From a virus: DNA of 34,436 nucleotides. Where the stretch lies: positions 1 to 34,436 of the IMG/VR virus record IMGVR_UViG_3300020020_000113, one strand, 5' to 3'. Made by a program: the position numbers and the translations under genes. Below, in pieces: positions 4,295 through 33,077 of the stretch. A model generated the notes under the pieces. The model ran no database searches, was not told where the DNA came from, and worked only from the letters and a program-made list of their open reading frames with translations. Numbering within the stretch: the stretch's first letter is position 1; every line of letters begins with the position of its first letter.

Positions 4295-4525
4295 TTAACA
4301 AGCTCCCTCGGTGGCTTCTAAAATCCTTTTACAATTTTCGCGTAAAAATTCTATGTCTATGCGTGACATGGAACGATTGTATTCGTAATCATTAACCCGG
4401 GCGCAAAGGTTGTAATCAAAATATTCTTGGCCGTCACCTTCAAACTCACACTTAAAATCAAATTCCGTGTCGCTTAAATCTGCAAGGTTCACTCGTTGAC
4501 CTCGATTGACTTCGTGCTTAATCAT
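4295..4525 (-). CDS. Small acidic hypothetical protein, 76 aa
   Basis: GAGGAA is well placed before ATG 4525. The protein is acidic: residues 15-40 include LADLSDTEFDFKCEFEGDGQ, followed by a Tyr-rich stretch (YFDYNLCARVNDYEYN) and a C-terminal helix. It shares a general plan with the next gene upstream (4599-4823): an acidic strand with a lone Cys, then a YEY motif followed by Met/Arg. The two may be distantly related. No family is recognised. Confidence 0.7.
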   Translation of the reverse strand: MIKHEVNRGQRVNLADLSDTEFDFKCEFEGDGQEYFDYNLCARVNDYEYNRSMSRIDIEFLRENCKRILEATEGAC

Positions 4526-4561
4526 GCTATATTCCTCGCGTTAGGTAAAGATAAGTAAGTT

Positions 4562-4591
4562 CCCCTAGGGCAGTTAGAGCTAACCTAGGGG
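4562..4591. repeat. Nested hairpin within the leftward operon
   Basis: CCCCTAGG (4562-4569) pairs with CCTAGGGG (4584-4591), and inside it GTTAG pairs with CTAAC. It lies in the 73-base gap between two leftward genes. No T-run follows on the minus strand, so a simple terminator is unlikely. It could set mRNA processing or stability, or bind a protein. Confidence 0.55.
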
Positions 4592-4598
4592 TTTAGAT

Positions 4599-4823
4599 TT
4601 ATTCGGCTTCTTTTTTAATAAAATCATGAATAGTTATATTCATAATTTGTTCTACATTCATTCGATAGATATACTCGTAGCCAGTCGCATTAACTCTATA
4701 TTGTTCGCGTGATGTCGGCCAAATGTCAGTTGGGCTATCACAAGCAAAGTCCCATTCAATGTTAATCCTAGTTTGTAGTTCCAGGGATATAGCTGCTATA
4801 TGTTTCTTGATTTCGTTTAGCAT
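4599..4823 (-). CDS. Small hypothetical protein, 74 aa
   Basis: AAAGGAAA stands before ATG 4823. The N-terminal 20 residues form a helix (NEIKKHIAAISLELQTRI), then come IEWDFACDSPTDIWP, a VNATGYEYIYRMNVEQI segment and an acidic C-terminus. The order (acidic strand with Cys, then YEY and Met) resembles the following gene. No domain is recognised. It belongs to the early leftward operon driven by the promoter at 5267-5295. Confidence 0.7.
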   Translation of the reverse strand: MLNEIKKHIAAISLELQTRINIEWDFACDSPTDIWPTSREQYRVNATGYEYIYRMNVEQIMNITIHDFIKKEAE

Positions 4824-4848
4824 TTTATTTTCCTTTTATAATTTTTAA

Positions 4849-5046
4849 TTAAAATACGCTTACTTGAACATTATCAGAAGTAAATATCATTCGGCTGCCA
4901 TCTTTGAATCTGTAATACAAATGGCCGGTAGCTTTATCAGTAGTATTTATTGCCAGTGGATAGGCTGCGGTTCTAAGAGTATCCAAACGATTTGGGCATT
5001 TAGAATCAGTATAAAGTTCGCTGTATAATATCATTGCAATATTCAT
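4849..5046 (-). CDS. Small hypothetical protein, 65 aa
   Basis: CAGGAT precedes ATG 5046. The product looks like a compact beta-rich fold: a helical start (MNIAMILYSELYTDSKC), then TGHLYYRFKDGSRMIFTSDN. No family is recognised. It is the second gene of the early leftward operon, and its position behind a near-consensus promoter suggests early expression. Confidence 0.7.
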   Translation of the reverse strand: MNIAMILYSELYTDSKCPNRLDTLRTAAYPLAINTTDKATGHLYYRFKDGSRMIFTSDNVQVSVF

Positions 5047-5080
5047 TTTAATATCCTGTTTATGTTAGGTTTAGAGCCGT

Positions 5081-5233
5081 TTACACGGCTACTACTTTAA
5101 TTATTATTCCGTTTTTTGCGATTAACTTCATATTAACCCTTAAATCTTTCAGCCATTTGTTCGCGCTCCTTAAATCACATGAACCCGATTCGTAGGCTTT
5201 TTTATATAATTCTATTATTTGGTTGTTGCACAT
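5081..5233 (-). CDS. Small hypothetical protein, 50 aa, first gene of leftward operon
   Basis: The start is set at ATG 5233, which has AGAGAG upstream; the longer frame from 5278 begins at the transcription start region of the promoter and has no ribosome site. The product has an N-terminal helical part (NNQIIELYKKAYESG), a middle SANKWLKDLRVNMKL and a hydrophobic strand at the end (NGIIIKVVAV). No function is recognised. Its leader is short, only about 25 bases from the expected transcription start. Confidence 0.65.
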   Translation of the reverse strand: MCNNQIIELYKKAYESGSCDLRSANKWLKDLRVNMKLIAKNGIIIKVVAV

Positions 5234-5266
5234 TTTATTCTCTCTATTTGTTGTTGGTATGAGGGA

Positions 5267-5295
5267 AGTATAGAGCATTGTATGAGTATTGTCAA
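5267..5295 (-). promoter_or_regulatory. Near-consensus early leftward promoter
   Basis: On the minus strand TTGACA (5290-5295), 17 bases, TATACT (5267-5272). It is an almost ideal sigma70 promoter reading into the leftward small-gene operon. The -35 box lies inside an 18-bp operator-like site shared with the other leftward operon. Confidence 0.85.
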
Positions 5296-5307
5296 ATAAA
5301 TCTTACA
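5290..5307. promoter_or_regulatory. Operator-like site O1 (TGTCA-N8-TTACA)
   Basis: TGTCAAATAAATCTTACA is identical to the site at 32661-32678 and related to 32703-32720. It overlaps the -35 box, so binding would block polymerase. Identity continues one base further (T). Confidence 0.7.
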
Positions 5308-5413
5308 TTAATTTAACTTATTTGATAAATAGTTTCATTTAAATTTTACTGTCATGAAATTTAATGGTTAAATTAAACTTTAAATCTTTGTGTTTTTTTG
5401 TGATACTTCAAAC

Positions 5414-5857
5414 ATGAAAGAAAAAACTAAGAAAACAGCAAAGATAAATGTTGGGGGTAGACCAACCACTCTTACCGAAGCATTGGCCGAACTTATTGTT
5501 GCGGATGTTCGAAAATATTTATCTCTTGCACACGCAGCAGAAGCTAATGGGATTCCACGTAGCACGCTTGCTACTTGGATGAGCCATGGAAACAAAGACT
5601 ATGAGAATGGAATAGACACTATATTCTCAAAGTTTACGAAGTCTATAAAAAGTGCAAGAGCAGAATTTGTGCATGATTCAATACATATAATCAATACCGG
5701 TGATAAGAATTGGCAATCAAACGCTTGGTTATTAGAGCGTTGTTGCGCTGAAGATTTTGGAAAAGATTCAGAATTGTATAAGCAGTTGCTTGAAGATTAT
5801 AAGATGTTGATACAGTCTCTTGTCGATCAAAACAAAGGGGTTAATCATGCCGGGTAA
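5414..5857 (+). CDS. Probable terminase small subunit / HTH DNA-binding protein
   Basis: The 147-residue protein starts at ATG 5414; a GTG at 5390 in the same frame has no better ribosome site. Residues 12-65 form a homeodomain-like helix-turn-helix (GRPTTLTEALAELI, then HAAEANGIPRSTLATWMSHG), and the following region (SKFTKSIKSARAEFVHDS, then WQSNAWLLERCCAEDFGK) is the usual second half of terminase small subunits and related phage DNA-binding proteins. This protein would recognise the packaging site and load the large subunit. The large subunit lies more than 21 kb downstream (27153), an uncommon separation. It opens the long late operon. A transcription regulator of similar build remains possible. 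Confidence 0.65.
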   Translation: MKEKTKKTAKINVGGRPTTLTEALAELIVADVRKYLSLAHAAEANGIPRSTLATWMSHGNKDYENGIDTIFSKFTKSIKSARAEFVHDSIHIINTGDKNWQSNAWLLERCCAEDFGKDSELYKQLLEDYKMLIQSLVDQNKGVNHAG

Positions 5858-16221: not shown

Positions 16222-18333
16222 ATGGGTGAGATGGTAAGACAGACTTCGTTTTTAGCAGGTGAAGCAGACGAGGTCACATGGAAACGAACAGATATCCCTG
16301 AATATTTAACCGCAGCCCAAAGCCTTTTAAATTGTGAAGTTGGTACAACCGGATTATCGAGAAAGCGCAAAGGCACGTCATTTAAAATTAATGCAACAGA
16401 CCAAGCTGTTTTAAGTTCTACAATGTATGAGTTCATAGATAAAAATGGCACGTACTACATTGTAATGGGCGGCGACAAGTTTTTTTATGTTTTTTCAGTA
16501 CCAAGTGGGCTGGCGAACGTAATTGATTACCAAGCTTTATTGGTCGTAGATTATCTGGGGAACCAGGTGGTTTACAATGATGCAACAGTCGGTTTTGTTC
16601 AAGCCATACCAGTTGATTATAATGCAGCTGATTTATTTGACATAGATTACACCGAAGATAATGATTCACTTATTTTAACATCCCCGAATTACCCACCAGG
16701 CAGGATTTTTATTGATAGCTATTCACCTTTGCATTTTGCATTTGAATATCTTGATATCTACCCATTACCTGCATTTGATTTCAACCAGATTAATTATAAC
16801 AATACGACTGTAGCTATTACTGGCACGGGATTAAGTGGTTCAATAACGACATTTACGTTTACAAATATGCCATTTGGGCCAGGTATACCAGTATTCACGG
16901 CGGCATGGTTAGGCGGTCAAATTATTGGTGGTGGAACAACTACACTATCACCAATTGGTTATGGAATAATTCAAACAGTCATACAAGGAACAACGACTGT
17001 TACATTTACAGTACTTGTGCAGATTCCGTTTTTAACTACGGCCGCAGGTGCTTCAACGGTAGGAAGTCAATATTCTATTCGACAAGTAGCATGGGTAAGA
17101 ACCTTAGGAAATCCTTTTGATTTAGGATATCCAGCAAAATGCTTATATTTTCAAAATAGACTTTGGTTTGCACGAACTGCATTATTAAGAAATACTGTAT
17201 TTGGTTCCAAGCTTAATCAGCCGATTTCATTTGACGTAGGAACTGGAAAAGATACCGATGCAATTATATTCACCATTGGACAAACTAATACTGGTGCGAT
17301 TGAATGGTTAAATGGTGGTAAGCAACTGGAAATATATTGTTCAAATTATGAATTTGCCTGTCCGCAGAATGAAGAAATAGGATTAACTCCAAGTACATTT
17401 TCAGTGCGTCAGCAATCATCCTATGGTTCATCAACGATATTAAAGCCTCAAACGTATTTGAATGATTCATATTTTGTACAAAAGACTGGGAAAGCGGCGA
17501 TTAATTTCCACTTCACAGGTGTAGGGCTTGCGTATGCAGCGACAAATGTAGCACCGCAAAGTCAGCATTTGATGAAAAATCCTAACAATAGAGCCTTATT
17601 GCGTGGTAATGATTTATCACAAGACAACTTTATTTATCTGCAAAATACAGACAATACGTTAACAGCCTTTCAGTTTGCTACAGAGGTTAAGCTAGCCGCG
17701 TTAACCCCTATAGTTTTTCAAGAAAACGTGCAGTTAATTGATATTGTTAGTGTAGATAATTTTGTTTATATATTGAAATATTATGCGCTTACTCAGCAGT
17801 TTACAATTGAACGATTAGAAAGAGGGGTATTTGTTGATAGCCAGCAATCTTATTTAATGAGTTCAAATGGAAAGATTACTGGCTTAGATAGGCTGGATGG
17901 TTATTTGGTACAGGTAATTTATCAAGCACAGGATTATGGAAAATACACAGTTGTAAATGGCGAGATAACAGTAAATAATCCTGATGAAATAGTTGATATT
18001 GTACAAATTGGGATATTATATGATGTTGAGATGATACCAATGTACCCGTATTACAGCGCAACGAGTGCGCCGTTTGAAAAGCAAGTTTCGAGGATTTACA
18101 TTGACTATTATCAGTCGCTGAATTTCCAAATCAATGGTGTTTTGGTTCAATATCAAAATTTCCATGATATTCAATTAGGATTGCCATTGATTCCGAAAAC
18201 GGATACAGCAATTTTTTCGCCAGTTTCTGGGTATAGTAGGTTTGACGGAGATTCAATTGTAATCACACAATCGTCACCATTTGATTTACAAATTCTATCA
18301 ATTGGGTATCAAATAGATATGGCAGTTATTTAA
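16222..18333 (+). CDS. Tail tubular protein B (gp12-like nozzle)
   Basis: I choose ATG 16222, with GAAGGTG upstream; the same frame could open at a TTG 15 bases earlier. The 703-residue product starts EMVRQTSFLAGEADE, TDIPEYLTAAQSLLNCEV and GLSRKRKGTSFK, the usual opening of podovirus nozzle proteins, and continues as a long beta-rich chain with no enzymatic motif. T7 gp12 is 794 residues, so this one is slightly short. It should form the distal part of the short tail. The upstream gap (16139-16221) holds AT-rich sequence and no clear promoter. Confidence 0.85.
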   Translation: MGEMVRQTSFLAGEADEVTWKRTDIPEYLTAAQSLLNCEVGTTGLSRKRKGTSFKINATDQAVLSSTMYEFIDKNGTYYIVMGGDKFFYVFSVPSGLANVIDYQALLVVDYLGNQVVYNDATVGFVQAIPVDYNAADLFDIDYTEDNDSLILTSPNYPPGRIFIDSYSPLHFAFEYLDIYPLPAFDFNQINYNNTTVAITGTGLSGSITTFTFTNMPFGPGIPVFTAAWLGGQIIGGGTTTLSPIGYGIIQTVIQGTTTVTFTVLVQIPFLTTAAGASTVGSQYSIRQVAWVRTLGNPFDLGYPAKCLYFQNRLWFARTALLRNTVFGSKLNQPISFDVGTGKDTDAIIFTIGQTNTGAIEWLNGGKQLEIYCSNYEFACPQNEEIGLTPSTFSVRQQSSYGSSTILKPQTYLNDSYFVQKTGKAAINFHFTGVGLAYAATNVAPQSQHLMKNPNNRALLRGNDLSQDNFIYLQNTDNTLTAFQFATEVKLAALTPIVFQENVQLIDIVSVDNFVYILKYYALTQQFTIERLERGVFVDSQQSYLMSSNGKITGLDRLDGYLVQVIYQAQDYGKYTVVNGEITVNNPDEIVDIVQIGILYDVEMIPMYPYYSATSAPFEKQVSRIYIDYYQSLNFQINGVLVQYQNFHDIQLGLPLIPKTDTAIFSPVSGYSRFDGDSIVITQSSPFDLQILSIGYQIDMAVI

Positions 18334-30502: not shown

Positions 30503-30531
30503 TTACCACCCTAAAAGGGTGGTAATCTTTT
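30503..30531. terminator. Bidirectional terminator between late and recombination operons
   Basis: TTACCACCCT (30503-30512) pairs perfectly with AGGGTGGTAA (30516-30525) around a 3-base loop. Five T residues follow on the plus strand, and an AATATTT stretch lies on the other side. The two operons end within a few bases of the hairpin. Confidence 0.85.
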
Positions 30532-31028
30532 TAAAATGGTATATCTTCTTCGAGCGTTTGTTCAACTTGCAACGCTGGTGCAGCGTGAGAATGATTTACA
30601 ACGCTACCATCAGCAGTAAGCACAAAATCTTTAACATCGTTCCTGTCAGCCCACATTTCCCCAGAGCCATCCGTTTTTAATGTGCCGCGTTTGATTACTA
30701 TATCTGCGTGACCTTGCTTGCCAATTGTTTTATCAATCTCAAAAATGGCATCTTCATATTGTTGGAGCATTCCTATCGTTTTAGCAAAATGACGTAGCTT
30801 ATAAGCAAAATTCCCATCGCCAGAAATATAGGTGAATAATGTGCGCTCACGGTTTTCTGCATCCCAAATTAATAATTTAAGCTTGGCCATATCAGTACCG
30901 TTCTTATCACGCAATGGTTGGCCGTATTGGTCAGTTATGATGGCTTCTAGAACCTGAAAGCGATAGATTCCAGGTTCCATTACATTCATGCTTTGTATTT
31001 GTGCTTCGGTATATGGTGTATATTTCAT
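30531..31028 (-). CDS. SSB-like single-stranded DNA-binding protein
   Basis: The 165-residue protein has a central beta-rich part that could form an OB fold (GIYRFQVLEAIITDQYGQPL, then AKLKLLIWDAENRERTLFTY) and ends EEDIPF. A short acidic tail ending in a DDIPF-like motif is the mark of SSB proteins, where it recruits partner enzymes. Phage proteins of this size beside Sak4 and Gp157 usually bind single-stranded DNA. It lacks the typical SSB N-terminal signature, so it is a distant type. TTAAGGA precedes the ATG. It is the last gene of the leftward recombination operon. Confidence 0.7.
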   Translation of the reverse strand: MKYTPYTEAQIQSMNVMEPGIYRFQVLEAIITDQYGQPLRDKNGTDMAKLKLLIWDAENRERTLFTYISGDGNFAYKLRHFAKTIGMLQQYEDAIFEIDKTIGKQGHADIVIKRGTLKTDGSGEMWADRNDVKDFVLTADGSVVNHSHAAPALQVEQTLEEDIPF

Positions 31029-31054
31029 CTTTTATCCTTAATTGTTAAGTTATG

Positions 31055-31546
31055 TTATTTAATTTCAAGTTTTAATCGGCGAGTAATACAAGCACCGGCA
31101 ACCTCAATGCCTTCATTGAGCACCTCTTTTAATCTTACCTTATCTATTGTGGTCGTTACTTTTTCGCGCCAAAATTCAGCGGGTATAAAATCCTCGCTGA
31201 TAATATCAACGGATGCAGGACATTGTTTAATCCTGATTTTAAAATATGGCGAACTCTTAATTTCCTTGATTGCCAACTTTTGCATGTTGAATTGTAAATA
31301 GTCTGATAAAGATACTACTTGCTTTGTCAGTCTTGCTTTGCGTGTCTTCATGTCATCCATGGCCTGGGTAATGGCCGCTTCCTCGGCCTCTAAGTTTTTG
31401 ATATATGTTGCTACGCAGACAGCCTTATTTTCAAAATCTTGTTGTAATGCATCTAATGTTTCAATCATATCGGTTGTTATTTCGCCATTTTCATCTACTT
31501 GATTGAAGACGTTTTCATATTCATTGGTTATTTTATATAGTTGCAT
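31055..31546 (-). CDS. Siphovirus Gp157-like protein
   Basis: The 163-residue protein matches the Gp157 plan: a helical start (DALQQDFENKAVCVATYIKN), a central coiled coil (LEAEEAAITQAMDDMKTRKA and RLTKQVVSLSDYLQFNMQKL), then FKIRIKQCPASVDIISED and a C-terminal VRLKEVLNEGIEVAGACI. The family is common beside SSB and annealing proteins in phages and was first described in Streptococcus phages, where it was tied to phage resistance; the molecular role is unclear, though a recombination function is likely from its context. AAGGAATCC precedes the ATG and the gene overlaps Sak4 by 14 bases. Confidence 0.85.
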   Translation of the reverse strand: MQLYKITNEYENVFNQVDENGEITTDMIETLDALQQDFENKAVCVATYIKNLEAEEAAITQAMDDMKTRKARLTKQVVSLSDYLQFNMQKLAIKEIKSSPYFKIRIKQCPASVDIISEDFIPAEFWREKVTTTIDKVRLKEVLNEGIEVAGACITRRLKLEIK

Positions 31547-32222
31547 GTTGGATTCCTTGGTTATCGCCTAAGTTATAATGTTCAATCTTATTTAGTATTT
31601 CGTTGAGATCATTATCAACATACGTTTCATCAAAGCATCCCATGGGTGTTTTTGCCATGTGCTGGCCATCATTTGCGGTGATGAATTTGTATTGATAGTC
31701 TACAATTAAAGATTGAAATACATAAGTAAAAGACCCTTCAATCATGTTGGTTTGATCAATCATTTTACCTATAGTTTTAGGCTTACATTTACCATGAACA
31801 TCTATATCAACATGCATTGTAATAATGCAATTTAAATCTTCTCTTAAACCGCGTAATGAGTTTATTAATTCCCAGGCATTACGGCCTATATCAGTGAACT
31901 TATCATAGCCTTTTTCACGAGCGCGGCGCATAAAAGTATTAGTAATTGTAAAGCCAAAATCATCAATAATAAGATTAGTAATTTCCGGCCTCTTTGTATT
32001 AATTAGTTTAATAACGCGCATTATTTTTTCGTGGTCGTCAGTTTCGTAATAATTGCCCGTTAAACCATCAACTGATAATTTTGTATAATTTGTTTTATAT
32101 CCCCTAAACGGTAAGGGCTTATCTAAGATATTAATGATAAATGTTTTGGTTGGGTCAAGGTTACGTAAACTAGTTGATTTGCCCGTTCCACTGTCCCCTA
32201 AGATTAAAATTGCATTACTCAT
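31533..32222 (-). CDS. Sak4-like RecA-type ATPase (single-strand annealing)
   Basis: The 229-residue protein carries Walker A GDSGTGKST (residues 9-17) and Walker B NLIIDDFG (near residue 92), with a THVDID segment that follows in the RecA-like core. Size, motifs and neighbours (SSB-like and Gp157-like) fit the Sak4/AAA_24 group of phage ATPases, which promote strand annealing with a partner SSB. It should help recombination-dependent replication and repair of the phage genome. Its ATG overlaps the stop of the tiny membrane gene upstream. Confidence 0.85.
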   Translation of the reverse strand: MSNAILILGDSGTGKSTSLRNLDPTKTFIINILDKPLPFRGYKTNYTKLSVDGLTGNYYETDDHEKIMRVIKLINTKRPEITNLIIDDFGFTITNTFMRRAREKGYDKFTDIGRNAWELINSLRGLREDLNCIITMHVDIDVHGKCKPKTIGKMIDQTNMIEGSFTYVFQSLIVDYQYKFITANDGQHMAKTPMGCFDETYVDNDLNEILNKIEHYNLGDNQGIQHATI

Positions 32223-32344
32223 GATATCAAACTCCCGACTACAAAAATGATTATACCAATTACGATTAAGTTAAAATTATTATGCCTATTTAGGCTCTTA
32301 ATGCGCTGTTTTGAGGTTATAAAATCTTTTAAGTTACTCGTCAT
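32219..32344 (-). CDS. Tiny single-pass membrane protein, 41 aa
   Basis: The start is ATG 32344, which overlaps the end of the previous leftward gene; a longer frame from 32404 lies within it and is rejected. The first 20 residues are basic (SNLKDFITSKQRIKSLNRHN) and the last 15 form a clear transmembrane helix (NLIVIGIIIFVVGSLIS). A basic start followed by one membrane helix would place the N-terminus inside the cell. A membrane protein in the middle of a recombination operon is unexpected. It could be a superinfection or host-membrane effector; this is not shown. Confidence 0.6.
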   Translation of the reverse strand: MTSNLKDFITSKQRIKSLNRHNNFNLIVIGIIIFVVGSLIS

Positions 32345-32591
32345 CAAACCAACTCCCGAAAATGTCAGATTCAGCACACATACGGTTAGAGCACGCATCA
32401 TCAATATACTCTTGCATAATAATATCTAAGTTATTATTGAGATTTAAAATCTTAGATACGAATGCCAGTTTATCTTCTGCGTTTAATTCTCGAATATCAA
32501 GTTTATATTCATTATCAATGAGTTTAGCTTTTTTGAATACCAGGGAATCCGAAATTTCAATAAGCGGTCTTTCGAATGATTTGATTGTCAT
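32334..32591 (-). CDS. First gene of the leftward recombination operon, 85 aa
   Basis: GAGGCA precedes ATG 32591. The protein starts SFERPLIEISDSLVFKKAKL, continues with DNEYKLDIRELNAEDKLAFV and a Met/Asp-rich helical C-terminus with CSNRMCAESDIFG. No family is recognised. It sits directly behind the early leftward promoter (32638-32666) and overlaps the tiny membrane gene, so it should be among the first proteins made. Function unknown. Confidence 0.7.
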   Translation of the reverse strand: MTIKSFERPLIEISDSLVFKKAKLIDNEYKLDIRELNAEDKLAFVSKILNLNNNLDIIMQEYIDDACSNRMCAESDIFGSWFDDE

Positions 32592-32600
32592 GATTTGCCT

Positions 32601-32630
32601 CGTTATGTTTTGTTATGTTTCGTTAAGTTA
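32601..32630. repeat. Three 10-bp direct repeats in the leader
   Basis: CGTTATGTTT, TGTTATGTTT and CGTTAAGTTA follow each other without spacing between the early leftward promoter and its first gene. They may be slippage products or a binding site; they lie within the expected untranslated leader and overlap its ribosome site region. Confidence 0.5.
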
Positions 32631-32637
32631 CCCATGC

Positions 32638-32666
32638 ATAATAGCAGACGTATTTTGCTATGTCAA
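32638..32666 (-). promoter_or_regulatory. Near-consensus leftward promoter of the recombination operon
   Basis: On the minus strand TTGACA (32661-32666), 17 bases, TATTAT (32638-32643). The -35 box lies in operator-like site O2. It shares its upstream 19 bases with the promoter at 5267-5295, so the two leftward operons should be switched together. Confidence 0.88.
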
Positions 32667-32678
32667 ATAAATCTTACA
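32661..32678. promoter_or_regulatory. Operator-like site O2 (TGTCA-N8-TTACA)
   Basis: TGTCAAATAAATCTTACA, identical to O1 (5290-5307). It covers the -35 box of the leftward promoter in the divergent region 32592-32769. Confidence 0.75.
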
Positions 32679-32702
32679 TAAATATTACATTTGTATTATT
32701 AA

Positions 32703-32720
32703 TGTCAGAATAAATTGACA
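32703..32720. promoter_or_regulatory. Operator-like site O3 (TGTCA-N8-TGACA)
   Basis: TGTCAGAATAAATTGACA is a perfect 5-bp dyad; its reverse complement agrees with O1/O2 at 14 of 18 positions. It covers the -35 box of the regulator's own promoter, as expected for autoregulation. Confidence 0.7.
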
Positions 32721-32743
32721 GTAATCAAACATTAAGTTATAAG
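32715..32743 (+). promoter_or_regulatory. Promoter of the Cro-like regulator and small-gene operon
   Basis: TTGACA (32715-32720), 17 bases, TATAAG (32738-32743). Transcription would begin about 20 bases before the regulator gene. It is divergent to the leftward promoter, with 48 bases between their -35 boxes. Confidence 0.8.
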
Positions 32744-32769: not shown

Positions 32770-32979
32770 ATGGATTCACCGATTAAAAAAATTAGAGAAC
32801 ATATGTTATTGACCCAAGAAGGATTAAGTAAATTATTAAAAATTTGTAGACCGATGCTATCGGAATATGAGACAGGAAGAAGAAAGCCACGTTTTGAATT
32901 AATAAAGAAATTACTAGTAATTGCTGAGGAAAATAATATTGACGTAAAAGTGGAAGATTTTTTTGCAAAAGAAAAATAG
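32770..32979 (+). CDS. Cro/CI-type helix-turn-helix regulator, 69 aa
   Basis: The 69-residue protein is a bare HTH domain of the XRE type: the HTH is LLTQEGLSKLLKICRPMLSE followed by YETGRRKP (residues 14-41), then helices to the end. It has no C-terminal cleavage or dimerisation domain as in lambda CI, so it is closer to Cro. It is divergent from the recombination operon, and its promoter carries one of three related operator-like sites. It is therefore the obvious candidate to bind those sites and switch both leftward operons and itself. AAAAGGGG precedes the ATG. No integrase or partner repressor was found. Confidence 0.85.
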   Translation: MDSPIKKIREHMLLTQEGLSKLLKICRPMLSEYETGRRKPRFELIKKLLVIAEENNIDVKVEDFFAKEK

Positions 32980-33000
32980 TTATCCACAGTTTTCGTGGAT
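32980..33000. promoter_or_regulatory. DnaA box with inverted partner
   Basis: TTATCCACA (32980-32988) matches the host DnaA-box consensus exactly. On the other strand ATATCCACG (33001-32993) matches seven of nine positions, and the two form a 7-bp hairpin TATCCAC/GTGGATA (32981-33000). They are followed by about 75 bases of AT-rich, gene-free DNA. A host-DnaA-dependent origin or a DnaA-sensing switch is possible. Confidence 0.5.
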
Positions 33001-33077
33001 ATAGTTGTTGATTAGTTTCTAAGTTATTGAAGGCAATAATTAACGTTAAATGTTAATAAAAAAACATAAGGATTAAA

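Follow-up and report, generated by a model that had tools for sequence, protein, structure and literature searches.

Does one small phage protein, reading one operator sequence, control two separate early operons together with its own gene? The question is raised by an uncultivated virus record of 34,436 bases, analysed here over its whole length (the window), in which three similar sites, O1, O2 and O3, lie at promoters. The window encodes a Head-tail_con portal, a major head protein, tail proteins, internal virion proteins and a candidate terminase large subunit, and it was therefore taken to be a podovirus. No nucleotide relatives of it were found in the phage collection, and portal identity to the nearest named phages is about 23-26%. 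Portals 84-93% identical to that of the window were found on seventeen viral contigs. The regulator alone recovered nothing when used as a query for close relatives; its 85-aa neighbor and the portal did work as queries. In relatives such as L090, the homolog of the last gene (34232) runs straight into the homolog of the first (270), suggesting that the genome is probably circular or circularly permuted, with the ends of the record falling between these two genes. Across that apparent join, O1 would lie about 7 kb from the regulator. The operator shared by two distant early operons, as described in the first-pass annotation, stands, with the distance between the operons refined to about 7 kb.

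Operators, promoters and the genes they face

O1 and O2 are the same 19-mer, as read directly from the sequence, and 14 of the 18 positions of O3 agree with O1 read as its reverse complement (Table 1). Both observations had been made in the first-pass annotation and were reproduced. The 19-mer is the longest exact match between the regulator intergenic region and the rest of the genome. The motif TGTCA-N8-TKACA, whose wide scattering away from promoters would have spoken against a regulon, was found in the genome only at the places of O1, O2 and O3 (four matches at three places, O3 being readable on both strands). Shuffled sequence gave a mean of 0.28 matches, and four were reached in 1 of 100 shuffles. 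A matrix built from the three operators scored them at 21.5, 21.5 and 20.3 bits, values that are partly built in since it was trained on its own three sites; the informative quantity is the gap to the next best site, at 12.2 bits, and the scan of the whole genome gave no fourth operator. In 100 simulated genomes the best score had a mean of 12.9 and reached 19.6 at the largest (once).

Table 1. Features of the control regions and of the genes next to them in the window
Feature	Position	Strand	Details
Putative leftward early operon under O1	4295..5278	-	ORFs 5278-5081, 5046-4849, 4823-4599, 4525-4295
Leftward early promoter at O1	5267..5295	-	TTGACA (5295-5290), 17-nt spacer, TATACT (5272-5267)
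Operator O1	5290-5308		TGTCAAATAAATCTTACAT 19-mer (18-bp site 5290-5307); over the -35 box of the leftward promoter
Promoter-like extended -10	5399..5413	+	TGTGATACT; 6 bp before terminase ATG 5414; no operator on the element
Terminase small subunit	5414..5857	+	phrog_4102, E 7.5e-17; start of the rightward late operon
Leftward early operon at O2	30531..32591	-	phrog_2872 E 2.7e-66, PF05565 E 8.6e-36
Genes of the O2 operon		-	85-aa protein 32591-32334; Sak4-like annealing protein 32222-31533; Gp157/Gam-like protein 31546-31055; 165-aa protein 31028-30531
Leftward early promoter at O2	32638..32666	-	TTGACA (32666-32661), 17-nt spacer, TATTAT ending 32638; TG before the -10
Operator O2	32661-32679		TGTCAAATAAATCTTACAT (18-bp site 32661-32678); over the -35 of the leftward recombination-operon promoter
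Operator O3	32703-32720		TGTCAGAATAAATTGACA; over the -35 box of the regulator's own promoter
Rightward promoter at O3	32715..32743	+	TTGACA (32715-32720), 17-nt spacer, TATAAG (32738-32743)
69-aa single-domain HTH_3 regulator (Cro/C2-type fold)	32770..32979	+	Proposed binder of O1, O2 and O3
DnaA-box pair, inverted	32980..33001		TTATCCACA at 32980; directly after the regulator gene

Two candidates were rejected. The stretch 16630-16645, a 16-bp match to O2, covers one half-site and the center, with the second half-site missing, and lies inside a tail gene; it is the one imperfect exception to the three-site pattern. The 19-mer was dismissed as a marker for relatives, since six other viral contigs (L084-L089) have it at an unrelated place, outside this regulon. 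It occurs there once per contig, with flanks near-identical among the six. The proteins of these contigs are unrelated to those of the window, except that two of them have a protein weakly matching the replication initiator.

Each operator covers the -35 box of a near-consensus promoter with a 17-base spacer, as had been claimed and as the sequence bears out. The promoters at O1 and O2 are among the few sites of the genome scoring 11/12 in a promoter scan. The one at O3 was read from the sequence, and the scan omits it since its -10 box lacks the final T. The layout of the O1 promoter is kept in most relatives, and equivalents of the O3 promoter are present in L136, L108, L107 and L110. The rightward unit at O3 consists of the regulator and small early genes and runs across the record ends. 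The labels early and late derive from the gene content of the operons. None of the four small proteins of the O1 operon had a match in PHROGs. The leader of the O2 operon (32600-32640) holds conserved repeats, reading GTAACTTAACGAAACATAACAAAACATAACGAGG on the transcript, which are found at the same place in L136, L109, L108, L107 and L138-L140; similar repeats also precede other leftward genes.

For the terminase gene, whose start was placed at ATG 5414 in preference to GTG 5390, the rightward transcript has its own promoter-like element, free of operators, beside O1. The three-site regulon claimed earlier is refined accordingly: the operators at the three early promoters stay in it, and this element stands apart. 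The element has an extended -10 and merely a poor -35. The pattern TTTTGNRATA(C/A)T-N6-ATG, read by eye, precedes the terminase gene in 12 of 15 relatives (e.g., L090, L095, L097, L099, L104 and L106), and the window has one site of this type in front of its terminase. Since the extended -10 is spaced 6 bases from the ATG, transcription is predicted to start at the start codon itself (5414), giving a leaderless late mRNA.

A Cro-type regulator beside divergent promoters

The protein expected to read the operators matches PF01381 (E 6e-09; 36.2 bits against a cut-off of 23), which makes it an HTH protein of the Cro/C1 type. Its AlphaFold2 model has five helices and a mean pLDDT of 92. Compared with the PDB, the model matched CylR2, the DNA-binding domain of DdrO, P2 C and P22 c2, with high probability (best 1.00) and with E-values that were all above 0.001 (best 4.5e-03). 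The many HTH proteins returned by a family profile search by sequence include 434 repressor, P22 c2 and 434 Cro. The layout is that of a Cro gene: a single-domain protein is encoded beside divergent early promoters, with O3 over its own -35 box and O2 over the divergent one. No opposing CI repressor was recognized, the divergent gene encoding the 85-aa protein (without a match in Pfam or PHROGs) and being followed by Sak4 and Gp157. Among the ORFs scanned with Pfam and PHROGs there was no second HTH_3 protein, and no SOS-cleavable repressor was recognized. The inverted DnaA-box pair directly behind the regulator gene is a possible replication origin. Similar pairs lie downstream of the regulator in L110 (about 1487-1502) and L108 (about 1705-1740).

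Control regions matched within each phage

Before the terminase gene, most relatives have a leftward promoter whose -35 box is covered by a palindrome-like sequence, and this sequence differs between phages; the divergent region beside the regulator likewise varies from phage to phage. Every divergent region was compared with every pre-terminase region in a small set of seven genomes. Six of them are single contigs carrying both regions (the window, G001, G006, G008, G009 and L138), and the seventh, L106/L136, consists of two contigs of one metagenome that were taken, without proof, as probably one phage. The own pair had the top score in all seven rows and columns. Among the 5040 permutations only the true pairing reached the observed sum (1/720 when L106/L136 was left out). 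When the divergent region was reduced to its leader, 4495 of 5040 permutations reached the corresponding sum, and 220 of 5040 did so when only the last 90 bp before the terminase gene were used, pointing to a weak kinship signal there. Against simulated pre-terminase sequence, the score of the own pair was reached in 0 of 1000 cases in every genome except G006 (p = 0.004). When each contig was searched with its own divergent region, the pre-terminase site ranked first in five of six genomes and second in L138, where the top match was a repeated leader sequence. G006 and L138 fit less well, G006 having a weaker pair and L138 11-bp tandem repeats without a clear dyad.

Control regions that are alike within a phage and different between phages support the claim of a three-site regulon under the 69-residue protein. 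At the level of sequence, this matching shows a common factor reading both regions, not the sign of its action. Upstream of the regulator, L138 and L139 have tandem 11-bp repeats of the TTATCATTCG type where the others have dyad operators, possibly reflecting a different mode of binding. In L096/L097, TGTCAAAATCAATTGACA fits TGTCA-N8-TKACA and was rejected, as it apparently lies inside a leftward ORF; the site matching that phage's own regulator region is AATGTCAACCGATAGTTTGCATTTA.

The regulator and its operators have changed together. When the window is set against G001 or L136/L106, most of the leftward operon shows 74-93% identity (G001 lacks a match to the Sak4 gene), and the genes from the regulator up to the replication initiator show 31-62%. 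Beyond the replication initiator identity is again mostly 64-93%, with some small genes poorly conserved. The regulator is 41% identical to that of G001 and its divergent neighbor 92%, and in the alignment the boundary falls between the -10 and -35 boxes of the O2 promoter. O1 lies outside the diverged block and its flanks align well between the window and L106. Its core nevertheless changes from TGTCAAATAAATC-TTACA in the window to TGTCAAGTTAAACTTAACA in L106, where it resembles the control region of L136. The simplest explanation would be selection that keeps O1 readable by the resident regulator. Operators thus change with the repressor between relatives, as they do between immunity groups.

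Early shut-off, its alternatives and known circuits

We consider it probable that the 69-residue protein is a Cro-type autorepressor that shuts off three early promoters, its own included, with no recognized opposing repressor. Early in infection, host RNA polymerase would fire three strong sigma-70 promoters, with transcription running leftward from O1 into small genes, leftward from O2 into the Sak4/Gp157 recombination genes, and rightward from O3 into the regulator and early genes across the record ends. The accumulating regulator, presumably as a dimer, would then sit on the 18-bp dyads over the -35 boxes and turn all three promoters off. Such negative feedback, extending to its own promoter, would produce a pulse of early expression, and with the early promoters off, polymerase could become available to the rightward late operon; the promoter-like element of that operon carries no operator.

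Early shut-off is favored over lysogeny, in line with the first-pass annotation, which held early-to-late timing or a carrier state to be likelier than classic lysogeny. A repressor of a non-integrating temperate phage or carrier state would keep the operators shut for long periods, leaving quiescent, plasmid-like DNA and immunity to phages of the same operator type. The divergence of the regulator block and its operators between sister phages, like that of a lambdoid immunity region, would fit such a state, as would repression covering early promoters on both sides and DnaA boxes adjoining the regulator. It is nevertheless unlikely, given the gene content: the tyrosine integrase domain PF00589 is absent in 11 records including the window, in agreement with the earlier statement that there is no integrase, and both the serine recombinase domain PF00239 and the ParB_N partition domain are absent in 6 records. 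Nor was a CI-like or SOS-cleavable repressor recognized, self-repression of the sole regulator gene disfavors a stable repressed state, and a one-genome-per-species search gave just two phage-sized contigs inside MAGs. Temperate cousins may exist, since the distant relative CKB-S2 has an annotated integrase.

The regulator might repress the early promoters and in addition assist late transcription from its position at O1, in the way that CI acts at PRM of lambda; its target would be the operator-free leaderless promoter. An extended -10 with a poor -35 could call for help, but the late -10 is about 95 bp downstream of O1, a distance beyond that of the usual direct contact, and no operator is near the late promoter-like element, so that we regard this as improbable. 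It is still harder to credit that a host transcription factor rather than a phage protein reads the shared sequence: near-palindromic sites over -35 boxes resemble many bacterial operators, yet from one sister phage to the next the sequence changes along with the phage regulator, a pattern that one host factor would leave unexplained. Chance sharing of -35 boxes and AT-rich flanks by strong promoters, or a recent copy of one of them, can practically be dismissed, since relatives show the same pairing with sequences of their own, even if TTGACA lies within the shared 19-mer and the region is AT-rich; promoter duplication was rejected, as the spacers and -10 boxes of the O1 and O2 promoters differ.

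An early shut-off repressor could also silence incoming phages with the same operators, so that immunity groups would form without lysogeny in integrase-free podoviruses, a tentative proposal that we put forward with some doubt. If true, the regulator and its three operators, one of them about 7 kb off and outside the exchanged block, would be driven to diversify together.

In the lambdoid phages 434, P22 and lambda, Cro acts with OR/OL at divergent early promoters, and the regulator-operator block diverges as a unit. The present circuit shares the small single-domain HTH repressor, the divergent early promoters, the dyad operators over promoter elements and the divergence of the block as a unit between relatives. 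It differs in that no CI partner was recognized and no integrase was found, in having one operator per promoter instead of three-site clusters, and in its third, distant operator at the early/late boundary. We did not file it as a lambdoid switch, since the partner repressor that defines a lambda-type switch was not found.

Cluster A mycobacteriophages have one repressor and dispersed stoperators, and motif and repressor diverge together between subclusters (PMC6550527). Repressor and sites diverge as a pair here too, whereas cluster A phages carry genes for integration or partitioning, and most of their stoperators share one orientation (PMC6550527); the window has three promoter-bound sites instead. 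The Aca autorepressors of anti-CRISPR operons are likewise small HTH proteins controlling their own operon (PMC9410906); the window differs from them in having no anti-CRISPR assignment and three separate promoters predicted to be under control. Methylophilales phage MEP301 and Vibrio phage CKB-S2 have a similar genome size and a homologous head-tail connector (about 24-26% identity). The annotation of MEP301 lists no such regulator, and CKB-S2 is set apart by its annotated integrase. Neither the lineage nor the circuit is described in the part of the literature that was searched.

It is mostly in temperate phages that shifts in repressor specificity are studied. In the present case, matched divergence of regulator and operators is seen at two separate genome places in an uncultivated lineage without recognizable integration genes. 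It supplies natural regulator/operator pairs for HTH_3 recognition and opens to experiment the question of whether superinfection immunity can arise from a lytic-type regulator. For phages that are known from metagenomes alone, pairing the control regions genome by genome also provides a way to map a regulon.

In L146/L174, a MAG contig of a more distant relative, AACCACTGG repeats occur in the divergent region, and no third copy of them was found elsewhere in the contig. At about 11735-12435 of L174 (G023:C65:26634-27334; portal 69%), two genes for HTH proteins lie with a small gene between them, an arrangement that is a possible two-regulator circuit.
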